Below the pieces are notes generated by a model. The model had not been told where the DNA came from. It did not search any database and worked only from the letters and a program-made list of their open reading frames with translations. From Nitrosomonas sp. sh817 (lineage in GTDB: Bacteria; Pseudomonadota; Gammaproteobacteria; Burkholderiales; Nitrosomonadaceae), in assembly GCF_030908545.1 (NCBI RefSeq), contig NZ_CP133083.1, forward strand, positions 1,612,001 to 1,676,000: a stretch of 64,000 nucleotides of DNA. The letters are read 5' to 3'. The position numbers and the translations under genes are program-made. Positions 14,943 through 27,811 of the stretch are shown here, piece by piece; the first letter of the stretch is position 1; each line of letters opens with the position of its first letter.

Positions 14943-15977
14943 TCACTGCTGATAACCGCTTGGATTCCCGCTCTGCCAGCGCCAGCTGTCCCTGCACATC
15001 GCCTCCAAATCAAATCGCGCTTTCCAGCCGAGTACTTGGGACGCCAGTTGAGGATCGGCATAACACGCCGCAATATCACCGGAACGCCGAGGCGCTATCT
15101 GATACGGAATCCGGCATCCACTAACCTTTTCATAAGCACGCAACACATCCATGACGCTATAGCCCTGCCCTGTGCCTAGATTTACGGTCATGCAACCGGA
15201 AGATTGATCATTTTGTGCGCTATTGATGTTTTTTAACGCCGCCAGTGCGCGGATATGACCGATAGCTAAATCAACCACATGAATGTAATCACGCACGCCA
15301 GTACCATCGTGCGTCGAGTAATCGTTACCCCAAATATTCAAATGCTCTCTTCGACCTACCGCAACTTGCGCGATAAAAGGCATCAAATTGTTCGGGATAC
15401 CTTGCGGATCTTCACCGATTAAACCACTGTCATGCGCACCCACCGGATTAAAATAACGCAATATGCAAATCCTCATCAAAGAATCGCTGCGGTACGCATC
15501 GCGTAGAATTTCTTCAATCATCCATTTACTGCGGCCATAAGGGTTAGTGGGCGACAATGGATGATCTTCAGTAATAGGCAAGTAAACCGGATCGCCATAC
15601 ACCGTAGCGGAAGAGCTAAAGACGATCGTTTGAACATGGCATGTCTGCATCGCTTCCAGTAATCGCAAAGCACCGACGACGTTATGATCGTAGTAATTGA
15701 GCGGCTTTGACACAGATTCGCCGACGGCCTTTAAACCGGCAAAATGAATAACTGCATTAGCCCGGCTCTGTTGCAATGCAGCGATCAAAGCACTGCGATC
15801 CCGGCAATCGCCCTGGATAATTTGTAATTTCCTGCCGGTGATCCGCTGCACACGAACGAGTGCTTCGGGGCTGCTGTTACTAAAATTGTCAAAAACGGTT
15901 ACATCATACCCAGCATTCAACAATTCAACGCAAGTATGCGACCCGATATACCCTGCTCCGCCTGTAACAAAAATCAT
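14943..15977 (-). CDS. galE: UDP-glucose 4-epimerase GalE
   Basis: GalE interconverts UDP-glucose and UDP-galactose using bound NAD. The N-terminal Rossmann motif reads VTGGAGYIGSHTCVELL (about residues 4-20). The catalytic SSSATVYG and YGRSK (Tyr and Lys of the SDR YxxxK motif) are intact, and NPVGAH and the RDYIHVVDLA segment are conserved. The length of 344 residues is normal. It is upstream of galU in the same direction. A 618-base gene-free stretch precedes it. Confidence 0.95.
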   Translation of the reverse strand: MIFVTGGAGYIGSHTCVELLNAGYDVTVFDNFSNSSPEALVRVQRITGRKLQIIQGDCRDRSALIAALQQSRANAVIHFAGLKAVGESVSKPLNYYDHNVVGALRLLEAMQTCHVQTIVFSSSATVYGDPVYLPITEDHPLSPTNPYGRSKWMIEEILRDAYRSDSLMRICILRYFNPVGAHDSGLIGEDPQGIPNNLMPFIAQVAVGRREHLNIWGNDYSTHDGTGVRDYIHVVDLAIGHIRALAALKNINSAQNDQSSGCMTVNLGTGQGYSVMDVLRAYEKVSGCRIPYQIAPRRSGDIAACYADPQLASQVLGWKARFDLEAMCRDSWRWQSGNPSGYQQ

Positions 15978-16595: not shown

Positions 16596-16671
16596 GGGTC
16601 GTTAGCTCAGCCGGTAGAGCAGCGGACTTTTAATCCGTTGGTCGGCAGTTCGAATCTGCCACGACCTACCA
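16596..16671 (+). tRNA. tRNA-Lys (TTT)
   Basis: This is a 76-base cloverleaf with the 3' CCA encoded. The acceptor arm is GGGTCGT / ACGACCT, with a G1-U72 wobble. The D loop is intact, and the anticodon loop is CTTTTAA (16627-16633) on a CGGA/TCCG stem, giving anticodon TTT. The T arm is GGCAG-TTCGAAT-CTGCC. The 3' part from the first base of the anticodon loop is duplicated exactly at 25383-25430. This tRNA is therefore the integration site of the downstream island, and its 3' part is probably regenerated by the element. Confidence 0.95.
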
Positions 16672-16674
16672 AAT
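16627..16674 (+). repeat. attL, 48-bp direct repeat in tRNA-Lys
   Basis: These 48 bases are identical to 25383-25430. They begin at the first base of the anticodon loop and run three bases beyond the CCA end. The base before and the base after differ between the copies (A/C and A/C). An integrase gene pointing toward this end begins 23 bases further on. Confidence 0.92.
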
Positions 16675-16679
16675 AGAAT

Positions 16680-16712
16680 AAGGGGTTAGTTAAACACTAA
16701 CTCCTTTTTTCT
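16680..16712 (+). terminator. Rho-independent terminator next to tRNA-Lys, element-borne
   Basis: AAGGGGTTAGT (16680-16690) pairs with ACTAACTCCTT (16696-16706), allowing G-U, and a T-rich tract TTTTCTTTTT follows. It ends the tRNA transcript and on the other strand overlaps the integrase 3' end. It resembles, but is not identical to, the hairpin at 25434-25460 just beyond the right repeat. Confidence 0.75.
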
Positions 16713-17761
16713 TTTTGAACGTGACAAAAACGTGACAGATTCACAACATTCCCGCCACGTCCATCCTCGATTCTAGCCGCCGCAACCCTTAAATGCTCGG
16801 TTGCATACTTAGCATAGCGATCCACCATAATTCTAGATTTCCAGCCACCTAAATCCTTTAATTCATCGCAGCTTGTCCCAGCCTGTCGATGCCATGAAGC
16901 CCAAGTATGTCTGAGATCATGAAACCGAAAATCTTTTAATCCTGCTTTAGCTAGAGCGGTATGCCATGCACTATTTGTAACTTCCCAGAGAATCGGTTTG
17001 CCTTGATAGGTAAAACAAAACTGCTCATGCTTACCCATTTGTTCCTGCAAAACTACCACTGCATCCGCATTTAACGGAACGCCTCTCGGTGTGCCATTTT
17101 TAGTACGATTCAACCATGCAGTGCGTCGATCTAAATCGACTCGATTCCACTCCAATCCGGTTATCTCACGCGCCCGGCAGCCTGTTGCCAGTGCAAACCG
17201 GATCAATGCCGCCAGGTGTTCAGGTGCAGCTGCAATCAATCGATCTGCTTCTTCTCTGGTTAACCACCGATCCCGTTCCACTTCGCCAGGCAATAAGCGA
17301 ATTTTAGGGATGCTATCAATCCACTGCCATTCATCGCGCGCCATTTTCAGCAAATTGCGAATCAAAGCCAGATAACGATTCACCGTTGCCGGTGTGTTAC
17401 CCTTCTTGAGTTGTCCCTGTACCACTGACCAAATCACGTCACCGTTAATTTGATTCAATGTCAGACTTCCCAAATAGGGATCAAGCATCCGGCAAATCCG
17501 ATTTACATCCCGAAAACTACGCAAACTCGCTTTGATTGTGAGATACCGTACTACGGCTTCTTGCCATGAGCGTTGGGGTTTAATACCGAAATGATGTTCA
17601 CGAAATGCTTCAAGCCGGATTTTGGCTAGCAGTGCTTCGGCATCTTGCCGGTTTTCAGTCCCAGCGCTTTGGCGTATTCTTTTGCCGTTTGGGAGCGTTG
17701 TTGCAATCCACCAGAAGCGAGAATCTTGTCTCCGGTAGACTCCTTCTTGGGTTTGGGCCAT
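16697..17761 (-). CDS. Tyrosine recombinase / phage-type integrase
   Basis: This is a 354-residue site-specific tyrosine recombinase. An N-terminal Arm- or SAM-like DNA-binding region (about residues 60-140) precedes the catalytic domain. The catalytic residues are seen in ATGCRAREITGLEW (first Arg), HDLRHTWASWH (His-x-x-Arg and His), GGWKSR, and the C-terminal DRYAKY with the nucleophilic Tyr. It lies beside attL and points toward the tRNA, as is usual for tRNA-targeting islands. Its 5' end overlaps the preceding AlpA-like gene by 136 bases. The stop lies inside the tRNA-side terminator hairpin. It appears intact. Confidence 0.93.
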   Translation of the reverse strand: MAQTQEGVYRRQDSRFWWIATTLPNGKRIRQSAGTENRQDAEALLAKIRLEAFREHHFGIKPQRSWQEAVVRYLTIKASLRSFRDVNRICRMLDPYLGSLTLNQINGDVIWSVVQGQLKKGNTPATVNRYLALIRNLLKMARDEWQWIDSIPKIRLLPGEVERDRWLTREEADRLIAAAPEHLAALIRFALATGCRAREITGLEWNRVDLDRRTAWLNRTKNGTPRGVPLNADAVVVLQEQMGKHEQFCFTYQGKPILWEVTNSAWHTALAKAGLKDFRFHDLRHTWASWHRQAGTSCDELKDLGGWKSRIMVDRYAKYATEHLRVAAARIEDGRGGNVVNLSRFCHVQKEKRS

Positions 17762-17973
17762 ATTGCCTCCTTCTTAGCCCGCCCGTGCTCGCCTTGCTTA
17801 TATTCTTCTATCCAGGCATCCAGGTCAACCCTGTCATAAAGACTGCGGCGGCCTATCTTGATACAAGGAATATCCAATTCCGTCAGTAATGTGACACCGA
17901 TACCGAGATATTGCGCCGCTTCTTCTTTAGATAAGCATCGAATGGCAGGCAGGGGCAGACTAACTTTACCCAT
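17626..17973 (-). CDS. AlpA/excisionase-like HTH DNA-binding protein
   Basis: This is a 115-residue protein with an N-terminal winged-helix or MerR-like DNA-binding domain: CLSKEEAAQYLGIGVTLLTE, then IPCIKIGRRSLYDRVDLDAW (about residues 13-55). That pattern is typical of excisionase/AlpA-like proteins, which bend att DNA or activate the integrase gene. The C-terminal half is basic and unassigned. The ATG at 17973 comes two bases after the Rep stop, behind GGTGA. The last 136 bases overlap the integrase gene in another frame. The position between rep and int supports a recombination-directionality role. The long overlap makes the exact C-terminus less certain. Confidence 0.75.
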   Translation of the reverse strand: MGKVSLPLPAIRCLSKEEAAQYLGIGVTLLTELDIPCIKIGRRSLYDRVDLDAWIEEYKQGEHGRAKKEAIWPKPKKESTGDKILASGGLQQRSQTAKEYAKALGLKTGKMPKHC

Positions 17974-17975
17974 CG

Positions 17976-19355
17976 TTATTCACCGTCTGACTGCTTCCGG
18001 TACTCAGTGGCAGATTTATCCAGCTTGGCTTTTTCTTCGGATTCGATATCGCGATTCAGGATAGTATTGAACTGACGCGCTTTAATGGCTACCTTTTCTT
18101 TGATGAAATCATCGAAAGATAATCCCAGATTGAAACTTTTTTCTTCGAAGTGCTGACAGAAAGCCAATTTATAGGCAGCAAAGCCCTGATCGAAGTTTGT
18201 GATTTGCTCGCGCGCCATGAAGGAAGTAAGAGAACTTAATGCACCACGGAAAATCATTTCATTGCTGGGAATCCGTGCAGAACTGAAACGTGGCAATAAA
18301 GGATTGTTATCGGTTTGCCAATCTACCGATGATAAATAGCCCCATAATGGATGAATCGGCCAGCGTGAACGGGTTTTATCTTCCGGATTGGGTAGCGTTA
18401 ACCGTAGCCATTCGGTGGTGGCATAGCTCCATAAGCCGTTGAGGTTATCCATTACCTCGGTAAGCTTACCTAAGCCCTTTTGCGTGAGTACTTCCCGTTT
18501 TAATTGAAATTCAAGCCGCCATACCGGATCGTATCCATTCCATCCGGCTTTATGCCACAATTCGAGCAGATAAGCTTTCCTGGATTGTTTTATTTCCAGT
18601 GTCTTGTTATACAAACGGCAACTGATAACTCCCCCTGCCCCGATCATCCAGCCGGAGAATTCCCGCTCAACCGAATAAGTATTGATGGCTGCTGCACGCG
18701 TAACCCAGGCATGACGATCCCAGCTTTCCATATTTTCCGAAGTGACAAAGTCCACAAACAGGTCGATCCGGCTGACATTGGCGGATTCTTCTATTGTTCC
18801 CAGTTGCTTTAGCACCTGATGTAAAGCCTTTTCCGCATCCAATGGCGCCTTATGCGTCAGATATGCACTGGAAAGCTGAACATAAGCAAATGGAATAGAC
18901 CGGCTACGGGATAGCTGAATGTGGAAAGCATTATCTCTCAGCACATACGGAAAGAATCCTTTGCCGCTGCTTTTTACTTCAAAGATATGCTCATTGATTG
19001 GATATTGGGCAAGCGCTTGCTCATGCAACTCAGACGACTGCGCAACCTGCTTTAGTTCTTGTAACTCTTCATCCACTTCCGGCAATAATTCCCCCGGATA
19101 GGATAAATAAAGACTATCAACTCCAAACCTTAAAAACTTGAAATACTCTCTATTGCTGTTATTGGGTACTGTGTTACTAGGTGGCGTACCCTCTGGGGAT
19201 AAATCTGACTGATGCAGCGCATCCGTCGAATCTTTTTCCACCTCTCCCTCGCATCTATCCTCCTCGCTGAAGCTCGTCGTCATCTGCGTTGGTTCGGCGG
19301 CTTCGATTTTATTAGATGCTACAGATTCAGGTAAAACGTTTATTTTTTTCTTCAT
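17976..19355 (-). CDS. Probable replication initiation factor (RstA/Rep_trans-like)
   Basis: This 459-residue protein resembles the replication initiation factor family of filamentous-phage RstA and related rolling-circle initiators. The supporting segments are the VSRIDLFVDF motif (about residues 196-205), SCRLYNKTLEIKQSRKAYLL (about 248-267) and the following VWRLEFQLKREVL, which together match the family core as I recall it. The first 70 residues are polar and probably disordered. Two bases separate it from the excisionase-like gene, and rep-xis-int form one leftward operon. If the assignment holds, the excised island could replicate as a circle. No HUH motif was identified, so the family call is moderate. 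Confidence 0.62.
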   Translation of the reverse strand: MKKKINVLPESVASNKIEAAEPTQMTTSFSEEDRCEGEVEKDSTDALHQSDLSPEGTPPSNTVPNNSNREYFKFLRFGVDSLYLSYPGELLPEVDEELQELKQVAQSSELHEQALAQYPINEHIFEVKSSGKGFFPYVLRDNAFHIQLSRSRSIPFAYVQLSSAYLTHKAPLDAEKALHQVLKQLGTIEESANVSRIDLFVDFVTSENMESWDRHAWVTRAAAINTYSVEREFSGWMIGAGGVISCRLYNKTLEIKQSRKAYLLELWHKAGWNGYDPVWRLEFQLKREVLTQKGLGKLTEVMDNLNGLWSYATTEWLRLTLPNPEDKTRSRWPIHPLWGYLSSVDWQTDNNPLLPRFSSARIPSNEMIFRGALSSLTSFMAREQITNFDQGFAAYKLAFCQHFEEKSFNLGLSFDDFIKEKVAIKARQFNTILNRDIESEEKAKLDKSATEYRKQSDGE

Positions 19356-19565
19356 GATAAAATCTCGTATCCACGGCGATCATGCAAATATTGCTGCATC
19401 GCAACGGATACGAACTTTATGCATCAAGACAAAGAATCTGAATGCACTAAACAACCACCGGCTAAAGCCGGTGGGTTTGAGTTACGGACTGAAAGTCCGG
19501 ATACGCGTCGACTAAACGACGCGTCTTATTCCGGCTCCATTTTAAAATTGTCGTTTGGATTTGGC

Positions 19566-19955
19566 TCAAAATGATGCTCCAAGTATTGTGATCATCTCTT
19601 CTGTCATCTGGCCTACTGTCACGCAGAAATACCCTCGCGCCCAAAAATGCCTTCCCCAGTACCGCTTCTTCAAGTGAGGAAATTCTTCAAACAGATAGCT
19701 CGATGTTCGTCCTTTTAGCCGCCTCATGATCTCACTCGGAGCCATCTCCGGCGGACAACTCACCAGAATATGCACATGATCCTTACTTACTACACCCTGT
19801 ACAATTCCGATTTCAAATGCTTCACACGTCTGACGAACCAACTCTCGTACTCGTTCTGCTACTTCTCCCTTCAGAATCTTATATCTATACTTCGTTACCC
19901 ATACAAAATGATATTCAATCTGATAAACCGTATGACTTCCATATCTATAATCCAT
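19566..19955 (-). CDS. tnpA: IS200-type Y1 transposase TnpA, copy 1
   Basis: This is an HUH-superfamily single-strand transposase. The HUH pair lies in KDHVHILVSCPP, and the catalytic Tyr is in WARGYFCVTVG near residue 110. The core YHFVWVTKYRYKIL is characteristic of IS200 TnpA. I place the start at the ATG at 19955, giving 129 residues, because a GGAGG lies just upstream. An ATG 21 bases earlier would translate through that site. The Shine-Dalgarno sits in the loop of a perfect 7-bp hairpin. No TnpB partner is present. The gene is identical in both copies and appears intact. Confidence 0.93.
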   Translation of the reverse strand: MDYRYGSHTVYQIEYHFVWVTKYRYKILKGEVAERVRELVRQTCEAFEIGIVQGVVSKDHVHILVSCPPEMAPSEIMRRLKGRTSSYLFEEFPHLKKRYWGRHFWARGYFCVTVGQMTEEMITILGASF

Positions 19956-19974
19956 GCCACACCTCCTGTGTGGC
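19956..19974 (-). promoter_or_regulatory. Hairpin presenting the tnpA ribosome binding site, copy 1
   Basis: On the coding strand GCCACAC-AGGAG-GTGTGGC forms a perfect 7-bp stem with the Shine-Dalgarno core in its five-base loop, directly before the tnpA ATG. IS200 tnpA mRNAs are known to limit translation through leader structure, and this could serve the same purpose. An identical copy is at 21502-21520. Confidence 0.65.
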
Positions 19975-20059
19975 ATATTCTCGCAGCTAAAGCTGACCGG
20001 CTGAAGCCGGTGGTTTTAACCTTATGATGGACAATAAAAATTATTTTTTAGTGCATTGA

Positions 20060-20965
20060 CTAATAGCCGTTTTTCTGCTTATTACGGTATTCGATACGTT
20101 TCTTAATTACAGAATTTTCATCTTCAATGTAGCCCTTGTCGCCATTCAATCCCATTCCGTTATACAAATCCAGAATCTCGCGCGCTTTCATATCATTTAG
20201 CCATTTAAACCCATCCAGCACAGCAAATAACATATATAACGCTGGATAATCAATCCTGCATTTAATAGCGGGACGGTCGATATATGCTGTAACTGAATTC
20301 AAAAAATTAGGGTCTTCACCTGTCTGGAGGCGTGCATAGGTATCGCGAAAGTAAGGATGGCCCGTCAAAATATTTCGATCTATCTGTATAGCTCTGCAGA
20401 AAGCTTTCTTATCACCTTTTAGTGCTAGTGGTACAAGTGTAGTCAACTTTTGACCGTGTACCATGAGCGCAATATGGTTGTAAAAATAGGCATAAATATA
20501 AGCAAAGAATAACTGCATTGAGAGAAAAATTTCTCTCTTTTCGTTCTCAGACAATGCTTCCAATTCTTTTCGAGCAATTTCCTGATCTTCGTTGGTAGCA
20601 TTAGAAATCTTTTCAAACAGATAAAAAAGATCGCCCCCTAGCTTTTCACATAAATATGAATCCACAAACTTGAGTTTCTCATCCTCTTTAATAGCTTGAA
20701 ATTCATCATCAAATTGGTTTAGTTGCTTTGTTGGATCTCCAGGAAACAAAGATTTCATTAAGCACGATAAGATTCTATTTTCTTCTTCGTAAGCCAGCAC
20801 ATATGAATCATCAAGATTTGAATTTTTCCGAATTTGTTCAAATTCTTTAGGCATCTTAATCCAGCCATTACGTTTAGCCATATAATCCATCAAAAGCCCA
20901 ACACATATAGGCACCAGTTCCGAAGCCAGTTTTATGGCAATGGATTTTTCTATACGAGGTTGCAT
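20060..20965 (-). CDS. Unrecognised 301-residue protein between two IS200 copies
   Basis: I do not recognise this protein. It has no signal peptide, no P-loop and no metal-binding motif that I can see. It is mainly helical and acidic to neutral. A very hydrophobic aromatic stretch in the middle, MQLFFAYIYAYFYNHIALMV (about residues 151-170), could be one membrane helix or a buried core. A charged basic tail ends the protein. The ATG at 20965 follows a GAG. The stop lies 20 bases from IS200 copy 1, and IS200 copy 2 begins 26 bases upstream of the start, so its native promoter may have been displaced. The setting suggests element maintenance or host-interaction cargo, but that is inference. Confidence 0.75.
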   Translation of the reverse strand: MQPRIEKSIAIKLASELVPICVGLLMDYMAKRNGWIKMPKEFEQIRKNSNLDDSYVLAYEEENRILSCLMKSLFPGDPTKQLNQFDDEFQAIKEDEKLKFVDSYLCEKLGGDLFYLFEKISNATNEDQEIARKELEALSENEKREIFLSMQLFFAYIYAYFYNHIALMVHGQKLTTLVPLALKGDKKAFCRAIQIDRNILTGHPYFRDTYARLQTGEDPNFLNSVTAYIDRPAIKCRIDYPALYMLFAVLDGFKWLNDMKAREILDLYNGMGLNGDKGYIEDENSVIKKRIEYRNKQKNGY

Positions 20966-21111
20966 ATGTAGCTCAGAATTCCATTGATTAGACTAAACAA
21001 CCACCGGCTAAAGCCGGTGGGTTTGAGTTACGGACTGAAAGTCCGGATACGCGTCGACTAAACGACGCGTCTTATTCCGGCTCCATTTTAAAATTGTCGT
21101 TTGGATTTGGC

Positions 21112-21501
21112 TCAAAATGATGCTCCAAGTATTGTGATCATCTCTTCTGTCATCTGGCCTACTGTCACGCAGAAATACCCTCGCGCCCAAAAATGCCTTC
21201 CCCAGTACCGCTTCTTCAAGTGAGGAAATTCTTCAAACAGATAGCTCGATGTTCGTCCTTTTAGCCGCCTCATGATCTCACTCGGAGCCATCTCCGGCGG
21301 ACAACTCACCAGAATATGCACATGATCCTTACTTACTACACCCTGTACAATTCCGATTTCAAATGCTTCACACGTCTGACGAACCAACTCTCGTACTCGT
21401 TCTGCTACTTCTCCCTTCAGAATCTTATATCTATACTTCGTTACCCATACAAAATGATATTCAATCTGATAAACCGTATGACTTCCATATCTATAATCCA
21501 T
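21112..21501 (-). CDS. tnpA: IS200-type Y1 transposase TnpA, copy 2
   Basis: Identical over its full length to the transposase at 19566-19955: same HVH motif, same catalytic Tyr segment and same ATG behind the GGAGG-containing hairpin loop (21502-21520). Both copies look functional. Perfect identity implies that duplication was recent or that the copies are kept alike by gene conversion. Confidence 0.93.
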   Translation of the reverse strand: MDYRYGSHTVYQIEYHFVWVTKYRYKILKGEVAERVRELVRQTCEAFEIGIVQGVVSKDHVHILVSCPPEMAPSEIMRRLKGRTSSYLFEEFPHLKKRYWGRHFWARGYFCVTVGQMTEEMITILGASF

Positions 21502-21520
21502 GCCACACCTCCTGTGTGGC
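21502..21520 (-). promoter_or_regulatory. Hairpin presenting the tnpA ribosome binding site, copy 2
   Basis: The same 7-bp stem with the Shine-Dalgarno in the loop as at 19956-19974, directly before the second tnpA start. Confidence 0.65.
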
Positions 21521-21728
21521 ATATTCTCGCAGCTAAAGCTGACCGGCTGAAGCCGGTGGTTTTAACCTTATGATGGACAATAAAATTCCAGATTAAGAGA
21601 TAGATAAATGTATCTGTCATATTAAATATCTGGATATATCAGTTTCTAACGGACTATCTTTGTACTTTGCTGAGGTTTTATGTATTCGGTGTACTAGATA
21701 ATTATTAATAGATTTAAAAAGGAAAAAT

Positions 21729-22184
21729 ATGAAAGCAAATGCAATAGGTATAAATCACGTGGCATTAGAAGTTGGGGATATAGAGGAAGCCATAAAATTC
21801 TATAGCGATTTCTTGAATTTCGAAGTTCAGGAAAAAAATGAGATGCAAGCATCTATTTATTTTGGAGATCAATTTATCAATTTCATAAAAAATGATAATA
21901 GACAAGCCGATCAAAAGCGTCATGTTGGCATAGCAGTGGACAATAAGGAATTGGTGAGACAAACACTTGAGCATATGCGAGTTAAATTTCTAAGTGGCTC
22001 TTTTCTAGATTTTCTTGATCCTTGGGGAAATCGTATTGAAATAACGACGTATAGCAAGATTCAATACACTAAAGCTGATCATGTATTACGGGGAATGGGT
22101 CTGGGTCATCTTAAAAAAACTGAAGAGGCACTTGCAGAATTGAATGCAAAAGGTCTAGGACCTACTCAACGCGATAATAGTTAA
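21729..22184 (+). CDS. VOC superfamily (glyoxalase/bleomycin-resistance fold) protein
   Basis: This is a 151-residue single VOC domain plus a short C-terminal helical tail. It begins INHVALEVGDIEEAIKFYSD, with the metal-ligand-type His near residue 10. A mid-protein HVGIAV (about residues 62-67) supplies a second His, and DPWGNRIEITTYS (about 96-108) holds the usual Glu. This set of ligands suggests a metal-dependent dioxygenase, isomerase or thiol-transferase role, but no substrate can be named. The ATG at 21729 has an AAAAAGGAAAAAT ribosome site. The gene reads rightward, opposite to the IS copy beside it, and is island cargo. Coding is AT-rich compared with the chromosome. Confidence 0.85.
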   Translation: MKANAIGINHVALEVGDIEEAIKFYSDFLNFEVQEKNEMQASIYFGDQFINFIKNDNRQADQKRHVGIAVDNKELVRQTLEHMRVKFLSGSFLDFLDPWGNRIEITTYSKIQYTKADHVLRGMGLGHLKKTEEALAELNAKGLGPTQRDNS

Positions 22185-22637
22185 CTTAGAAATAAACCAA
22201 TGCTGATAATGACTTCAGAAGGGCTTTATTGTCCACTTAGCGATTTTTACATATAGTCGTGAAAACACATAACTATGGTGAAAACTTTTACGTCAATGGC
22301 GTTCAGATTTCCTTTCATTCAACTGGGTATATTCTGGGATCCGCACAAATTCATATTAATCACTGTGGTGAAATTTAGATTGGAGGATGTATGCATAAAA
22401 AATCAATAATTATAACAATTAGTTTTATGTTATCGATTTTTGACGTTTAATGCAGTTGTCTCCTGAAAATGACACTAGTACTTTCCCATGGATAGATCGT
22501 GTTCCATTATTGCAGTGACCCGATTGAGATCGCTGCCCTATAATATACGGCTGCTTGAATCTGCAATCGTGGATGTAGCGATGGATAAATATATGCATAT
22601 AATCAATTGCATCGTTCTTCAGCAAATTCATGCTATC
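22185..22637. other. Gene-poor stretch in the island
   Basis: No complete gene is recognised. The only coding-like signal is the short secretion-leader remnant at 22391-22450. Other small ORFs here lack ribosome sites and family features. The stretch is probably a scar of lost cargo. Confidence 0.45.
22391..22450 (+). pseudogene. Truncated signal-peptide-like reading frame
   Basis: A strong TTGGAGGATGT precedes ATG, and translation gives a 19-residue MHKKSIIITISFMLSIFDV before TAA. A basic start followed by a hydrophobic run is a typical secretion leader, so this looks like the first codons of a lost exported protein. One frame over, about 24 more codons stay open, which would fit a frameshift. 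It could instead be a genuine small peptide. Confidence 0.3.
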
Positions 22638-23531
22638 TCAGAATGGGAGAACAGCTTTAAGCCAGAATGCAGTTCCATCAGCGCGATTCCTGACTGCCGT
22701 ATCTATTTGGTATTTACCGGTAATGAACCATCCCCGTCCACTATCGTAACGTATTGACGGACCTATCGCATAAGCACGCCCCTTATTATTTGTAACCGAT
22801 TCGCCATTTTGGGAATCATTAGTGACCTGCCAGTAAGCATAACCACCGATACCTAATACCCAGCCTCTTCCCACCCCCCAGCCTAGGGTATAGTCAATAA
22901 TAAGCTCTTGTCCGGACAGGTAATTTGTATCTTTATTTTGGAGATTATATGTCCACATCGCCTTGATACCCATATTCAAGCCGGTTGGATCAATACGAGT
23001 AATGCCAAGAACAGGTTGAATTGCCCAGTGATTTCGGCCAATATTTGCAATGTTATCCTTATGATAATTTCCAGTTGGAGCAAACAATTCAAGCGCAGCC
23101 ACGCTATGTAATTTATCACTGAGCTGCCAGCCTAATACTCCTCCTATCGTCATATCCCCGATACCTGTTTTATTTTGAAAAACTTCCGGAGCAACCTTAA
23201 CATTGAGGTTCACAATAGGCATGATCGTGTGAAAACCTAATGAAGCCCCCATAATATTTATTGGTGTGATCCATACAACTCGAGGGACAATAGCGCTGGC
23301 AGTCACCCTGAAAGACGGGTGTGATACAACCTCTCCCTCATTATCACGAATTTTATCAGCACTGTAATGCCGTCCCCACAGCATCCCGTAAACCCCGGGT
23401 TTAGGTAACGCACAACAGATATATTCCTCAGCCCCAAGCGGATAAATACTGCCTCCGCCTTCAGTAGCAAATGCTGTACCAGCCTTACTTACTATTACCA
23501 GCACAAAAAGTGTGTGCCTATAGATCGTCAT
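22638..23531 (-). CDS. Outer-membrane transporter-like beta-barrel (phenol MetA-deg family)
   Basis: This 297-residue exported protein has a signal peptide (about residues 1-22, ending AFA). Its mature part resembles the SphA/MetA-pathway-of-phenol-degradation family of outer-membrane channels. It alternates aromatic and small residues in strands, has FAPTGNYHKDNIANIGRNHW in the middle (about 152-171), a YTLGWGVGRGW hairpin and a terminal AFWLKAVLPF ending in Phe, as outer-membrane barrels do. Family members are usually linked to uptake of hydrophobic or aromatic compounds, but no degradation genes are present. A small lipoprotein gene lies 96 bases upstream on the same strand. It is island cargo. 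Confidence 0.75.
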   Translation of the reverse strand: MTIYRHTLFVLVIVSKAGTAFATEGGGSIYPLGAEEYICCALPKPGVYGMLWGRHYSADKIRDNEGEVVSHPSFRVTASAIVPRVVWITPINIMGASLGFHTIMPIVNLNVKVAPEVFQNKTGIGDMTIGGVLGWQLSDKLHSVAALELFAPTGNYHKDNIANIGRNHWAIQPVLGITRIDPTGLNMGIKAMWTYNLQNKDTNYLSGQELIIDYTLGWGVGRGWVLGIGGYAYWQVTNDSQNGESVTNNKGRAYAIGPSIRYDSGRGWFITGKYQIDTAVRNRADGTAFWLKAVLPF

Positions 23532-23627
23532 TGAGATAGATCATGGCGACATTTCTGCCACTTCCATATATGTACTGCTCCACAATTTGTTACTAGGCGG
23601 TTAAGAATACAGAAAGAATAACAACCA

Positions 23628-23837
23628 TTAATACCAGATGCCATCATCACCTTCTTTCAGGCATGATCCATTTGCATCCAGTCCGTATGCACACTCTATT
23701 TTTTCACCAGCAAGTTTTTTTTCATAATTCTCTCTTTCCCTTTCATTAATCGTCACCGAAGGACGACCACATGCAGCTATCAGCATAACTAACAAAGCTA
23801 ACAAAGTAATAGTAGCTACATTGATAATACGCTTCAT
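23628..23837 (-). CDS. Small lipoprotein
   Basis: This is a 69-residue lipoprotein. A hydrophobic leader ends in a lipobox LIAAC (Cys at about residue 23), so the mature protein is about 47 residues, polar and charged, with two further cysteines in ECAYGLDANGSCLKEG. These could form a disulfide in the periplasm. The start has GGGGGTTAT upstream on the coding strand. The function is unknown. It lies just upstream of the barrel gene and may be expressed with it. Confidence 0.7.
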   Translation of the reverse strand: MKRIINVATITLLALLVMLIAACGRPSVTINERERENYEKKLAGEKIECAYGLDANGSCLKEGDDGIWY

Positions 23838-24194
23838 AAAAATAACCCCCTATAAAATTTACAATAACTTTACTTTTTACCAACCCGAGATCAATTTGCA
23901 CTATTTGATGGATAAGGCTCCATGTAATAAGCATCGAATCTTCTGCAAGTTAGGAACGATTCAGCGAAGTATGTGCATTATTTAGTTCCACTTGGTATCG
24001 GTGTAATAGAATCAGCTCCAACAAGATCAACATAAATCCGAATGGCTCAATGTTCACCCTTTCTTTTTGAAGTTTCTCACGCAATTATTCATGATGATTG
24101 CACTTAATTTTTCAATGTAGAATTATCTATTGCTTCTTATATAGAATAAATACCGTTTTTTGGATATGATTGATCCATTAATGGAGCAATTAAT
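23838..24194. other. Intergenic region between lipoprotein and LysR genes
   Basis: This 357-base AT-rich divergent region probably contains the promoters of both genes and a LysR operator. I find no convincing T-N11-A site by eye and no ORF. Confidence 0.4.
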
Positions 24195-25070
24195 ATGGAA
24201 TTTTTGAATGACATGGCCTTATTCGTGGAAGTTGTCAGGGCTAGGAGTTTTCGCGGGGCCGCCGATATTATTGGGATCCCGAACTCAACCCTATCGCGAC
24301 GGATCAGTGCGCTGGAGAAGATGATCGGATTGCGTCTTTTGCATCGCACAACACGCAAGATCACATTAACCGAGGCTGGTCAGATTTATTTCGAGCGCTG
24401 TAAGCGCATCGTCGAGGAAGCCAAGCTCGCGCACGAGCAACTCGGCGAAATGCTCAAGCAGCCCAGTGGCGTGCTACGCGCTTCGTTGCCTGTAGATTTT
24501 GCCGTGATCTACATGACACCCTTAATCGCCGAATTTGCAAGACTATATCCGGGCATCGTCTTCGATTTCGATCTTACGTCACGGCGGATCGATCTGGTGA
24601 GTGAGCCTTTCGATGTAGCAATCCGCATTGGAGAACCGGAGAACTCGCAATTGATCGCGCGCCCATTGGGCGTGCTCCCTGTGTACCTATACGCTTCGCC
24701 TCGTTATCTTGAGCGTGCGGGAGAACCTGCCGAGCCAGCCGATTTGGCGCGCCATGAGTGTTTAGGTCTCATGAAGACTGGCACTTGGATATTGCACGAT
24801 GGAGAGAACACCGCCAAAATTTCTATTGGCAGTCGATTCACACTCAACAGTGTCGGCATGATTTGCCGCTTGGCGACACTCGATATGGGCATCATCATGA
24901 TGATGGAGAAAATTGTCGCTGATGATCTTGCGCGTGGGCGATTGCGTCGCGTACTTCCCCAATGGTACGGCACTCCAGTCTCCATCTACGCTGTTACGGA
25001 AACCCGATTACTGCCCGCAAAAACACAGCACTTTATTAAGTTCCTGCAGGAACATTTAAGTAAAGTTTAA
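24195..25070 (+). CDS. LysR family transcriptional regulator
   Basis: This is a 291-residue LysR-type regulator. The N-terminal winged HTH reads FVEVVRARSFRGAADIIGIP, then STLSRRISALEKMIGLRLLH (about residues 10-50). The C-terminal effector-binding domain follows, with the family-typical LIARPLGVLPVYLYASPRYL. The ATG at 24195 has GGAG nine bases upstream. It is more GC-rich than the nearby island genes and reads away from the lipoprotein-barrel pair. It may control those genes or a lost neighbour. It ends 313 bases before the right att site. It is intact. Confidence 0.93.
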   Translation: MEFLNDMALFVEVVRARSFRGAADIIGIPNSTLSRRISALEKMIGLRLLHRTTRKITLTEAGQIYFERCKRIVEEAKLAHEQLGEMLKQPSGVLRASLPVDFAVIYMTPLIAEFARLYPGIVFDFDLTSRRIDLVSEPFDVAIRIGEPENSQLIARPLGVLPVYLYASPRYLERAGEPAEPADLARHECLGLMKTGTWILHDGENTAKISIGSRFTLNSVGMICRLATLDMGIIMMMEKIVADDLARGRLRRVLPQWYGTPVSIYAVTETRLLPAKTQHFIKFLQEHLSKV

Positions 25071-25382
25071 CAGGAAGCCAAAATGAAAGCTCCGTTGACT
25101 GGGATTGCAATGTAAAACATTAGCTTGTGCCCTGGTCAGCACCAGCTGGGCAAAATAGTGTGATTATGTAAGAGAGTATTTAATATTAGAAGAGATTTTC
25201 TACTGAAGCTCGCCACTACTATAATGCCATTGTCGCATATCAGTATAGTTACTACTTTCTTACTTTCGCGTACAGCTATTAAGAAAACTCTAAGAATAAA
25301 ACGTGACAATTCTGACAATTATTGACGAGTGTTAGCGAGCACTGACGAGTTTAATGTTAATAAAAACAGTTAGATATCATAC
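25071..25382. other. Right end of the island, no gene seen
   Basis: This AT-rich stretch lies between the LysR gene and attR. It contains irregular GACGAGTG/GCGAGCACTGACGAG-like direct repeats near 25324-25350, which may be integrase or excisionase arm sites. No ORF is supported. Confidence 0.35.
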
Positions 25383-25430
25383 CTTTTAATCCGTTGGTCG
25401 GCAGTTCGAATCTGCCACGACCTACCAAAT
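25383..25430 (+). repeat. attR, 48-bp direct repeat of tRNA-Lys 3' part
   Basis: An exact copy of 16627-16674. It lacks the 5' half of the tRNA, so it is not a second tRNA gene. The terminator that follows is probably the original one of the tRNA. Confidence 0.92.
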
Positions 25431-25433
25431 CGA

Positions 25434-25468
25434 AGAGGTTGGTGAAAAACACTAACCTCTTTTCTTTT
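25434..25468 (+). terminator. Original tRNA-Lys terminator, displaced by the island
   Basis: AGAGGTTGGTG (25434-25444) pairs with CACTAACCTCT (25450-25460), with one G-U pair, and is followed by TTTTCTTTTT. It lies four bases beyond attR and aligns with the tRNA-proximal hairpin at 16680-16706. Confidence 0.75.
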
Positions 25469-25771
25469 TCAAAACAGGCCGCAATGCATCTGGCGGCATT
25501 AAATTAGTGGCCTTGCGTTGTGTAAGCGTGCCTGGTGCAGATTCCGTAAATATCGTCTCCAGCAGCGTGACAATGACGCCCGACACGGCAAATCCATCTC
25601 CTTCATCAGCCAGCCAATTCAGGAATGCGGTGAAATTCATGGAAAAAGATCGTTGGTATAAGGGACTCCGAAATAACCTGCGGTTTTCTGTTCGATGAAT
25701 TCATGACATTCAACAATTACGCATAAAAACATAGCGTGCATGCTTACAGCGCCATGCACACGGCTGTTGAT
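25469..25771. other. Short region right of the island, no gene assigned
   Basis: A 62-codon leftward frame (25452-25640) is open here and reads protein-like, but it has no ribosome site and runs into the terminator. I leave it unannotated. Nothing else is seen. Confidence 0.35.
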
Positions 25772-27811
25772 TTATTCGATCGCCCTACGCTGCACCTGCA
25801 TCGGCCAGACACCTTTTTCAATCACTTGCCGGCTATCAAAAGCGAGGTAGCTTTGGCGCCCGTAATGCGGCAGCGGGCGCAACAGAGCTTCGAGAGCGGC
25901 AGCGTCGGCTACGGAAACCACCGCCAGCGTCGCACCATCCGGCCGGGCGACGGTCCATACTTGCGCGCTGCCTTTTGCCGCGATGGCTTGCGGAATGCCG
26001 GGTAGCGATTGCGCTTCCAGCCAGCGTTCGATATCCGCCTGCAGGCCGATAATTACAGCCGGAGCGGCGGTAAGCGTTTGGTCATCGGCGAGCAATTCCG
26101 GCGTCCGGCGTTGCAGTTTTTCCGCAAGCGCTGCGGCAAGCTGCCGGATATCGTCTTTGTCCGACAAGATCAGCGTTTCCGTTGCCGGATGCACCATCAC
26201 ATCGCGCAGGATCGGTGGCGCTTCCTGCGGTGCTAATTTCCGGAACAGCCGCAGGTCCGGATCGAGCAACACGGCTTGCGGTGTTCCGGAAAGTTTTAAG
26301 GTAAATGTCTGTTGCGTTTGCTGCAAATCGAGCCGATGCGAGACCGGTCCTTGACCGGTTTCAACCACGACCGGCACTTGCAATTGATACGCCGGTTCCG
26401 ATTGCGTCAACATCAGCGTTAATTCATAACCGCTATCCACTGCGCTGCTCGCCGCCGCAGCGATTGCGATATCCGGTGCCCCCGAACGTTCGAGCCATTG
26501 CGAAAAAAACGGCTGCAACGATTGCCCGGAAACAATTTCAAACATTTTTTGCAGATCGCTCCACGGCGTGATTTTAAACCGGTGCGTAGCCCACAATCCC
26601 TGCAAGCCGCGCTGGAACATGGCTGACCCTAATTGATCGCGCAGCATGAAAAATAACATCGCCGCTTTGTTATAACCGACGATCTTTGATGCATCATGCG
26701 TGCGCGAAGTGAATGCGGTGAGCGGCTGATCCTGCCCCGGCTGCAACGCGGCAAAATCGCGCAGCCAACCCAGGCGCATTTCCCGCGCGGCTTCCTCGCT
26801 TTGTTCTTCCTGATACGCATGATCGGCCATGAACGTGGTCAGGCCTTCCGACCAGTTACCGCTGCGATAATCCGGATAAATCCCGTTACCCCACCAATTG
26901 TGCAGCACTTCATGGCCTAATGAGGTATGACGGATAAACGGCAGTTTCAATACGTCGATACCCAGATAAGTCAGGGTCGGCATACCGAATCCTGTCGGCG
27001 TCGGACTCGATACCACGCTGAATTCGGAGTAAGCATACTCGCCGATTTGTGCCTCGTAGCGCGCCAGATATTGTTTCACCGCATCCAGGTAATCAGCCGC
27101 CAGTTCGTGGATTTGCGGATGAAAATAAGTCCGCAATTGCACCGGCTTCTGCTTGATGTTGTGATAGGTTTGCATCTCGATTACATACGGCCCGGCCATC
27201 AAGTCGATGCCCTCGGCGGGCTGGGAAAATTCAAACACCGCGCGATAGCCTTCTTCGGTATCGGATTCTTCAGCCAAACGCCCGGCGACCAAACCTTTGT
27301 AGCCGGGCGGCAGTTCGATTTTTACTTTGTACTTGGCCAATTCACCGGCTATGCGCGGATACCAGTTGGCGCCGTCCGGTAAAAAACTCCCGTCCGCACC
27401 GCTAACCGCAAGCGGTTTTCCCAGTGTTTGATGATGATCGAGTGATGTATCGAGCGTATCCAAAACGCCGTGCCAGCGGATCAGAAACTGGATTTGCTGG
27501 CGGAAATGAAAAGGAATATTCCAGATATGCGGTTGACCGGCCTGCTCGCGCCCTTGTCCTAGCGGACCGTCGTTGAATTCCGCCTGCGTGACCTCGTACG
27601 CCGCGCCCAATATCAATTGCAACTCCCGCGGCCGTTCGACGGTAATCATGCTGACGCCTTCGATCGTGCGTTTAACGGGATCAATGGTCACCGTCATATC
27701 ATATTCGATCTGATTAAATTTGAACGGTGATGGACGCGCCAATGTATTGCTGCTGATAACACTCGCCAAAATCAGCAACAAACCGGCTCTGAACAATACT
27801 AACGGTGTCAT
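25772..27811 (-). CDS. M1 family metallopeptidase, exported
   Basis: This is a 679-residue zinc peptidase of the M1 (aminopeptidase N-like) clan with an N-terminal signal peptide (about residues 1-25, SNTLARP). The zinc site is intact: HEVLHNWWGNGI gives HExxH plus the family WWG, and the third ligand Glu lies in NWSEGLTTFMADHAY (about residues 305-345). The GFGMPTLTYLG segment replaces the GAMEN exopeptidase loop, so substrate preference may differ from classic aminopeptidases. The C-terminal third is helical with a small unassigned domain. It lies 18 bases after the ChaN-like gene and is probably translated from the same message. Confidence 0.87.
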   Translation of the reverse strand: MTPLVLFRAGLLLILASVISSNTLARPSPFKFNQIEYDMTVTIDPVKRTIEGVSMITVERPRELQLILGAAYEVTQAEFNDGPLGQGREQAGQPHIWNIPFHFRQQIQFLIRWHGVLDTLDTSLDHHQTLGKPLAVSGADGSFLPDGANWYPRIAGELAKYKVKIELPPGYKGLVAGRLAEESDTEEGYRAVFEFSQPAEGIDLMAGPYVIEMQTYHNIKQKPVQLRTYFHPQIHELAADYLDAVKQYLARYEAQIGEYAYSEFSVVSSPTPTGFGMPTLTYLGIDVLKLPFIRHTSLGHEVLHNWWGNGIYPDYRSGNWSEGLTTFMADHAYQEEQSEEAAREMRLGWLRDFAALQPGQDQPLTAFTSRTHDASKIVGYNKAAMLFFMLRDQLGSAMFQRGLQGLWATHRFKITPWSDLQKMFEIVSGQSLQPFFSQWLERSGAPDIAIAAAASSAVDSGYELTLMLTQSEPAYQLQVPVVVETGQGPVSHRLDLQQTQQTFTLKLSGTPQAVLLDPDLRLFRKLAPQEAPPILRDVMVHPATETLILSDKDDIRQLAAALAEKLQRRTPELLADDQTLTAAPAVIIGLQADIERWLEAQSLPGIPQAIAAKGSAQVWTVARPDGATLAVVSVADAAALEALLRPLPHYGRQSYLAFDSRQVIEKGVWPMQVQRRAIE

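Follow-up and report, generated by a model that had tools for sequence, protein, structure and literature searches.

The window analyzed here is a 64,000-nucleotide stretch of the genome of Nitrosomonas sp. sh817 (3.15 Mb, two contigs), in which an 8,756-bp element, counting one attachment (att) copy, occupies a tRNA-Lys(TTT) gene. Exact 48-bp repeats bound the element and begin at the first base of the anticodon loop, tRNA position 32; they extend to 52 bp if one mismatch is allowed. A tyrosine integrase gene reads toward the tRNA and ends 25 bp away from it, and behind it lie genes for an AlpA/excisionase-like protein (Xis), a replication protein (Rep) and a predicted all-helical protein (orf3). 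We consider this probably a small integrative rolling-circle element. Its core features, in window positions, are as follows.

16596..16671, plus strand: tRNA-Lys(TTT), found by ARAGORN; 16596-16626 is chromosomal and the element supplies the 3' part, from 16627 on
16627..16674, plus strand: attL, exact 48-bp repeat starting at tRNA position 32
25383..25430, plus strand: attR, exact 48-bp repeat, the displaced original 3' part of the tRNA
16697..17761, minus strand: tyrosine integrase, 354 amino acids (aa) (Pfam PF00589 Phage_integrase, 3.1e-32; phrog_1, 1.4e-64)
17626..17973, minus strand: AlpA/excisionase-like HTH_17 protein, 115 aa, overlapping the integrase start (PF12728, 4.4e-7; phrog_66, 2.8e-4)
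17976..19355, minus strand: Rep, 459 aa, Rep_trans-like rolling-circle initiator (phrog_20614, 2.1e-5; motifs; structure model)
19164..19191, minus strand: covarying stem-loop, GGGTAC, a 16-nt loop with TAGTAACACA, then GTACCC; candidate nick site and origin
19192..19291, minus strand: structured stretch beside the candidate origin, within the coding start of rep
20060..20965, minus strand: orf3, 301 aa, a frequent core gene, predicted all-helical
19446..20035, minus strand: insertion sequence (IS) of the IS200/IS605 family, copy 1 (tnpA 19566-19976)
20992..21581, minus strand: IS200/IS605-family copy 2 (tnpA 21112-21522)

A sequence-only reading of this stretch had proposed an island of 8.8 kb in the tRNA-Lys(TTT) anticodon loop, bounded by 48-bp repeats and with the integrase beside the tRNA and directed toward it. 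ARAGORN, a repeat search and an empty site all bear this out, boundaries included, and the size is refined to 8,756 bp. The unoccupied site, which that reading had suggested seeking in relatives, is present in a genome of the same species (G035), where one intact tRNA-Lys stands between the same neighboring open reading frames (ORFs). When the window flanks are joined at the repeat, 430 of 450 bases align with G035 through the junction of tRNA and terminator, and chance is thereby excluded; farther out, G035 has about 250 bp of extra DNA at about window 25491-25504. The earlier gene inventory was right about the two IS200 copies, the VOC protein, the barrel, the lipoprotein and the LysR regulator, but left the AlpA/Xis-like protein and Rep unrecognized, and its single unknown gene accounts for just one of two different genes, Rep or orf3, the other going unmentioned. 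The 115-aa HTH_17 protein also matches TIGR01764, under that profile's cut-off. The structure model of orf3 consists entirely of helices (predicted local distance difference test, pLDDT, of 84) and had no structural match in PDB.

Rep and the candidate origin hairpin

Rep_trans initiators are defined by motifs I (RxD), II (T/SxY/ExG), III (YxKxxE) and IV (W/LxRxE) (PMC5714925). We located 42 Reps and aligned the 36 over 430 aa for codon and motif counts, dropping L103, L108, L086, L089, L097 and L018. All 36 carry R-x-D-[LM] for motif I, RLYxKxxE for motif III, and W-[RK]-x-E-F; the W/L position of motif IV is V278 in the window Rep and is nearly invariant. In a comparison of the Rep model with PDB, the VIA second look gave matches to 4cij, 4cwe and 4cwc, with the tyrosine placed in a beta strand. 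Most of the named records that hold a close Rep are Nitrosomonas. A more remote relative is the only large gene of the 1,724-bp Mesotoga plasmid pTHEBA.01, typed as non-mobilizable, whose protein is 27% identical over 54% of Rep, which suggests that a Rep of this kind can run a plain replicon. Rep shares with Rep_trans (PF02486) of the pT181/pSTK1 type its fold, the R-x-D and YxKxxE motifs and a candidate nick in a hairpin loop. It differs in being unseen by Pfam, in a deviating motif II, in an integrating carrier, and in a candidate origin that lies at the start of rep itself, where a tail predicted to be disordered is encoded. The pT181 origin also lies inside its rep gene.

The hairpin emerges from codon usage in the 36 Reps. 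Of 115 conserved degenerate columns, nine are restricted to a single codon, and seven of the nine fall among the nine such conserved columns of residues 53-68 (hypergeometric 2.9e-8, for a region picked after the alignment was seen). These one-codon columns spell GGTACG-N5-T-N-GTAACACAGTACC, which is the hairpin. The window has one copy of this pattern, and 0 of 100 shuffles contain it; across the genus there are 39 occurrences, spread over 30 of 85 genomes (reversed control, 0), and a coordinate comparison places all 39 sites inside Rep matches. Of 17 distant Reps, two are on IMG/VR contigs and 15 at loci from further genera of this order; a blind search for inverted repeats lists such a hairpin in 14 of them. 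A loop pattern written after those hairpins were seen finds it in 17 of 17, 16 with at least five pairs in a row and one with four. The exact genus form was absent from IMG/VR.

Stem covariation was scored in 55 sequences (54 distinct). This alignment leaves out L103, which has an 8-bp loop duplication, as well as L086, L097 and L018, which are without the motif; it readmits L089 by its DNA motif and includes L154 despite its four pairs in a row. Five of the six pairs change on both sides, as do 20 cells, and 98.8% of cells pair, compared with 29-49% in slid controls. This was reached by 0 of 500 shuffles on four measures, counts that are no probabilities, since the sequences are related. Within the loop, a G-C pair is replaced by C-G in five sequences and is never broken; these five read [TC]ACTAACAGA, and the remaining rows read GTAA, save one. 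The MOB_T nic site is CT'AA, carried in the loop of a hairpin rich in GC, and it is identical to the Rep_trans origin sequence (PMC9371924). The covarying hairpin predicts the nick position as [G/C]T'AA in the loop. The 100 nt upstream of the hairpin have a mean folding z of -1.77 in 38 sequences (L086, L089, L097 and L018 are out for want of an N-terminal anchor) versus -0.09 in 111 control windows in rep.

Two observations concern single copies of this region. In the L103 copy (L103:13023-13170), 8 bp of the candidate nick loop are exactly duplicated, so that AGTAACAC stands twice, and the duplication shifts the rep frame. Just upstream of the hairpin, short palindromes look unrelated by eye between L088, L108, L091 and L115 on the one side and L092, L094 and L095 on the other, as if an accessory hairpin of the origin had been swapped between elements. 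Plasmid pTHEBA.01 was dropped as support for the hairpin, as its longest stem (9 bp, CTAA) is on the other strand; a search for stems with a [CG]TAA loop gave 13 rows, many nested, and a 7-bp stem with loop ATCATAGTAATA lies, as expected, on the coding strand inside its Rep gene (599-624).

An embedded hairpin could instead be an mRNA control element or a coding constraint and no origin at all. It does sit within an open reading frame, and covariation alone cannot separate DNA from RNA. However, the loop is its most conserved part and carries the nick-site letters of the superfamily or a one-base variant, and the residues it encodes lie in a tail, Rep residues 1-66, predicted with pLDDT below 50. 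We regard this explanation as very improbable.

Several results weigh against a rolling-circle origin and initiator. Motif II as written is present anywhere in just nine of the 36 Reps, although an invariant GW-x-IG stretch (G235, W236, I238, G239) may replace it. PF02486 matched 0 of 36 Reps at E values up to 0.5. Foldseek alone gave no PDB match below 1e-3 for the Rep model, so the Rep_trans fold depends on the VIA second look. A fifth covariation measure, counting further pair types, was matched by 211 of 500 shuffles. One of the 55 rows, L165, reads GTAT in the loop. For the window copy alone, the upstream folding signal is weak (z -1.26 over 148 nt), and this copy has two IS insertions.

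Distribution, target tRNAs and sibling cargo

Elements of this kind are common in the genus and occur beyond it. Rep was detected below 1e-30 in 33 of 85 genus genomes (36 at 0.001) and, across the order, in 19 of 399 genomes and 12 of 164 sampled genera, counts to which the genus itself contributes six genomes and one genus. Both ends were found for 16 of the 42 loci examined, in tRNA-Lys (5), tRNA-Asn (5) and tRNA-Thr (6). The repeat starts at position 32 in 14 of them, at 30 in one and at 33 in one. These elements span 6.1-13.7 kb, and integrase and Rep are common to all 16. A gene of the orf3 family follows rep in nine (in the window, an IS lies in between), a different gene does so in six, and none in one. 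Genus-wide, orf3 occurs in 21 genomes, all of which also have Rep. The core of the family is int-xis-rep, often with orf3, and the cargo varies.

Distant loci extend the range of targets. Nine of the 17 have both att copies, in tRNA-Arg, Met, Lys(CTT) or Thr, with start positions of 29-33 and copies 4.4-11.4 kb apart. In the 4.4-kb element L156, four ORFs (361, 115, 363 and 291 aa) take the positions of int, alpA, rep and orf3, and a further one has 171 aa; the rep frame of this element begins short of the hairpin, which lies just upstream. Within the genus, integrases of the Lys and Asn elements are 82-91% like the window integrase. In a tree with mostly weak forks (8 of 36 starred), the five Lys rows stand among Asn rows, and two label changes are needed. 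Over their first 11 bases, a single difference separates the tRNA-Asn from the tRNA-Lys repeats (anticodon GTT or TTT). Insertion by tyrosine integrases into tRNA anticodon loops is already known.

The window genome carries two family elements, one in tRNA-Lys and one in tRNA-Thr. The second (L078:2630-12297, in G000:C1:762000-781900) occupies 9.6 kb in tRNA-Thr(TGT), has a Rep about 47% identical and a 986-aa cargo protein, and is followed by another integrase and more IS200 copies. In G035 the tRNA-Thr(TGT) site (L172:827-9455, G035:C14) holds a different island with no Rep match. The integrase region of that island has 91% DNA identity to the integrase following the second element, as if the second element had inserted in front of such an integrase.

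We also note a second element type, with a Rep of 23-28% identity near an ORF of 537-549 aa (L134:6234-9787, also L130, L132, L133, L135 and L136). The scan covered L134, whose Rep of this type matches Rep_trans (1.2e-5) and whose ORF encodes a large serine recombinase, the end of which overlaps a tRNA-Asn beside an element of the first type. Contig L016, filed under Thermodesulfobacteriota, has an integrase 85% and an AlpA 81% like those of the window, which would reflect either wide transfer or a mis-binned contig.

The cargo slot holds plausible defense genes in several sibling elements. Cargo scans covered 37 of 51 proteins singly against Pfam and all 51 with PADLOC (25 of 231 families listed), ten of them singly. 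A plausible defense gene was found in six of 15 siblings, three of them PADLOC-supported; the slot also holds unknowns. The candidates are a type III-A-like retron reverse transcriptase with its PRTase (L094), a type II-A-like retron reverse transcriptase (L101), a BamHI-family nuclease with methylase together with a ThsA-like SIR2 protein (L102), a STAND/NB-ARC protein (L104), a cytosine methylase (L112) and a TIR protein (L117). The cargo of L085 (6885-12156) includes an encapsulin-family (Linocin_M18) domain beside a 1,453-aa protein with no Pfam match at 0.01 and no PADLOC match at 0.001.

Together, these patterns could reflect a widespread, undescribed class of elements in the order, defined by int-xis-rep (often with orf3), an origin inside rep and insertion in many tRNA anticodon loops, whose rolling-circle DNA would travel between cells with phages, filamentous or tailed, or with conjugative helpers and would spread antiviral defense genes. 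We hold this broad generalization with somewhat less than even confidence. The family would tie the exchange of defense genes among nitrifiers, and across their order, to a single small vehicle. No description of the family was found among the titles listed and passages seen from the open-access literature, a weak sign of novelty. Integrated elements with rolling-circle initiators have precedents; what is new here is the unrecognized Rep, the covarying embedded hairpin and the tRNA-wide family.

Proposed mechanism and movement between cells

In the mechanism that we propose, the integrase and the AlpA/Xis-like protein would excise the element from the tRNA-Lys anticodon loop. In the excised circle, as inferred from sequence, covariation and predicted fold, Rep would nick the hairpin loop within the start of its own gene, the cut being expected to fall between the T and the A of loop TAGTAACA, and the nick would drive rolling-circle replication. 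Given a Rep_trans-like initiator and a candidate nick or origin hairpin, the circle is expected to replicate by rolling circle and could be mobilized in the same way. In a new cell, the circle would enter an anticodon loop, with tRNA and terminator rebuilt. The slot beyond orf3 is probably swapped freely, with defense-like genes in several siblings and a metabolic and regulatory block in the window.

Library scans of the window proteins found no capsid and no canonical conjugation gene. The earlier statement that such genes were not seen and that movement was open is thus upheld for the cell-to-cell step, but it overlooked the Rep_trans-like initiator with its candidate hairpin. As no transfer machinery was found in the element, exit from the cell is most likely with a helper, the nick serving as transfer origin (oriT) for a conjugative helper or the replication product being packaged by a phage.

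The conjugative version would make this an integrative mobilizable element (IME), in which Rep is mainly a MOB_T-type relaxase and the hairpin an oriT. MOB_T relaxases are related to Rep_trans, and their nic site, CT'AA, lies in the loop of a hairpin (PMC9371924), and Firmicutes IMEs with their own Rep-trans relaxase and a helper integrative conjugative element are proven (PMC7563843). The second contig of the window genome also encodes a type IV coupling protein. However, the coupling-protein family PF02534 was no commoner in Rep carriers (21 of 33 versus 30 of 52 other genomes, p 0.65; 19 of 29 versus 27 of 41 among better genomes), and the non-mobilizable Mesotoga plasmid argues that the family can be a plain replicon. 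We view an IME as a tentative possibility, well short of even odds. The likeness to Rep-trans/MOB_T IMEs (PMC7563843) and to the oriT of ICESt3, Tn916 and ICEBs1 (PMC9371924) lies in an integrating element with a Rep_trans-like enzyme and a nic-like tetranucleotide in a hairpin loop; of an oriT, the window element shows the nic-like hairpin. It differs in being proteobacterial and in its tRNA anticodon-loop site. Its loop is 16 nt, against 12 intervening bp in ICESt3, and reads GTAA in the genus as opposed to CTAA (PMC9371924).

The phage version would make it a minimal satellite, with a helper phage packaging the rolling-circle product, as with PICMI. PICMI shares the minimal logic of int, alpA, one replication gene and an accessory slot for defense genes, as well as small size (PMC10803314). 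Its primase and fis-adjacent site set it apart; the window element has Rep in the primase's place, and library scans matched no primase family among its proteins. Compared with predicted viral proteins, Rep best matches one from Inoviridae that bears the name REP (E 7.7e-9, though with a TM-score of 0.32-0.35), and two Rep relatives with the hairpin (L140, L141) are on contigs filed as viral in IMG/VR, from which the exact genus form of the hairpin is missing. Zot, a filamentous-phage marker, was commoner in carriers (20 of 33 versus 18 of 52, p 0.025), but the association was weak in better genomes (17 of 29 versus 14 of 41, p 0.053); these p-values are uncorrected for two tests and for phylogeny, and Zot is absent from the window genome. 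Scans of the window proteins found no packaging or capsid gene, and no Zot or coat match arose from seven proteins searched against PHROGs and nine against Pfam. We consider a satellite rather unlikely. Five carriers had neither Zot nor the coupling protein; the carrier, Zot and PF02534 lists were typed by hand from search results, and their sums agree with the tallies.

Other small islands offer partial parallels. Pseudomonas tmRNA islands such as I55 resemble the window element in a tyrosine integrase, AlpA in many, defense cargo and no recognized transfer genes, and differ in size (under 20 to over 70 kb), tmRNA site and other core genes; transduction of I55 by a jumbo phage was shown (PMC12595487). 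In PICI, the replication origin lies immediately 3' of the replication gene (PMC6092414); the candidate origin here is within the 5' part of rep.

A further question is whether the window copy is a stranded, inactive remnant of a family that is otherwise mobile. Two IS insertions around orf3 and gene-poor stretches in the cargo half fit such decay. The int, xis and rep frames are nevertheless open, and the copy has its hairpin, its two att sites and its arm repeats, so we find a remnant unlikely. Returning to the rolling-circle element that we favor, small islands that sit in tRNA genes and lack transfer genes are common and as a rule unexplained, and this one appears to have a concrete engine: a Rep invisible to Pfam and a hairpin that gives a base-exact nick prediction. 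Replication and transfer thus become testable, and the hairpin provides a search handle for the whole family.

Ends and cargo of the window copy

The remaining features of the element are its end sequences and cargo genes.

16680..16706, plus strand: terminator-like hairpin, element-supplied, behind the rebuilt tRNA
16719..16737, plus strand: two direct ACGTGACA repeats, 11 bp apart, read from the sequence; candidate integrase arm sites, left
21729..22184, plus strand: VOC/glyoxalase-fold protein (PF00903, 5.4e-11)
22638..23531, minus strand: outer-membrane protein, Phenol_MetA_deg family (PF13557, 2.9e-60)
23628..23837, minus strand: lipoprotein-like ORF, 69 aa (weak LptM-like match below cut-off)
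24195..25070, plus strand: LysR-family regulator (PF03466, PF00126)
25301..25349, plus strand: right end, with one ACGTGACA plus three T[GA][AG]CGAG repeats spaced by 10 bp; candidate arm or Xis sites
25432..25462, plus strand: terminator-like hairpin displaced to attR, matching the one behind the tRNA at the empty site

The end repeats are candidate integrase and Xis arm sites; similar repeats, with some letters changed, occur in all ten Lys and Asn elements, and the six Thr elements differ. Outside the element, the neighboring ORFs are one of 344 aa (14943-15977), presumably galE-like, and one of 679 aa (25772-27811), which we take to be peptidase-like.

The two IS200 copies that flank orf3 are near-identical, and their Y1 transposase matches NF033573 (5.7e-47, over cut-off) and PF01797 (1.5e-43). 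The window genome has 25 near full-length copies at 99-100%, which points to recent insertion and to a burst of IS200/IS605 in this genome.

The window cargo had no defense match and is an ordinary metabolic and regulatory block. LysR occurs in 13 of 85 genus genomes, its own included, at E values up to 1e-60, and the 69-aa lipoprotein-like ORF is near LysR in all five other genomes examined. The whole VOC-barrel-lipoprotein-LysR block recurs in one of these five (G026), at 84-97% protein identity, so the cargo is not a random mix. No integrase or Rep match was found in the 14 kb around the block in G026. Homology with G026, compared by eye, continues through the right end of the element into a decayed tRNA-Asn 3' end, which suggests that the cargo rode, or was left by, a tRNA-Asn element in another species.

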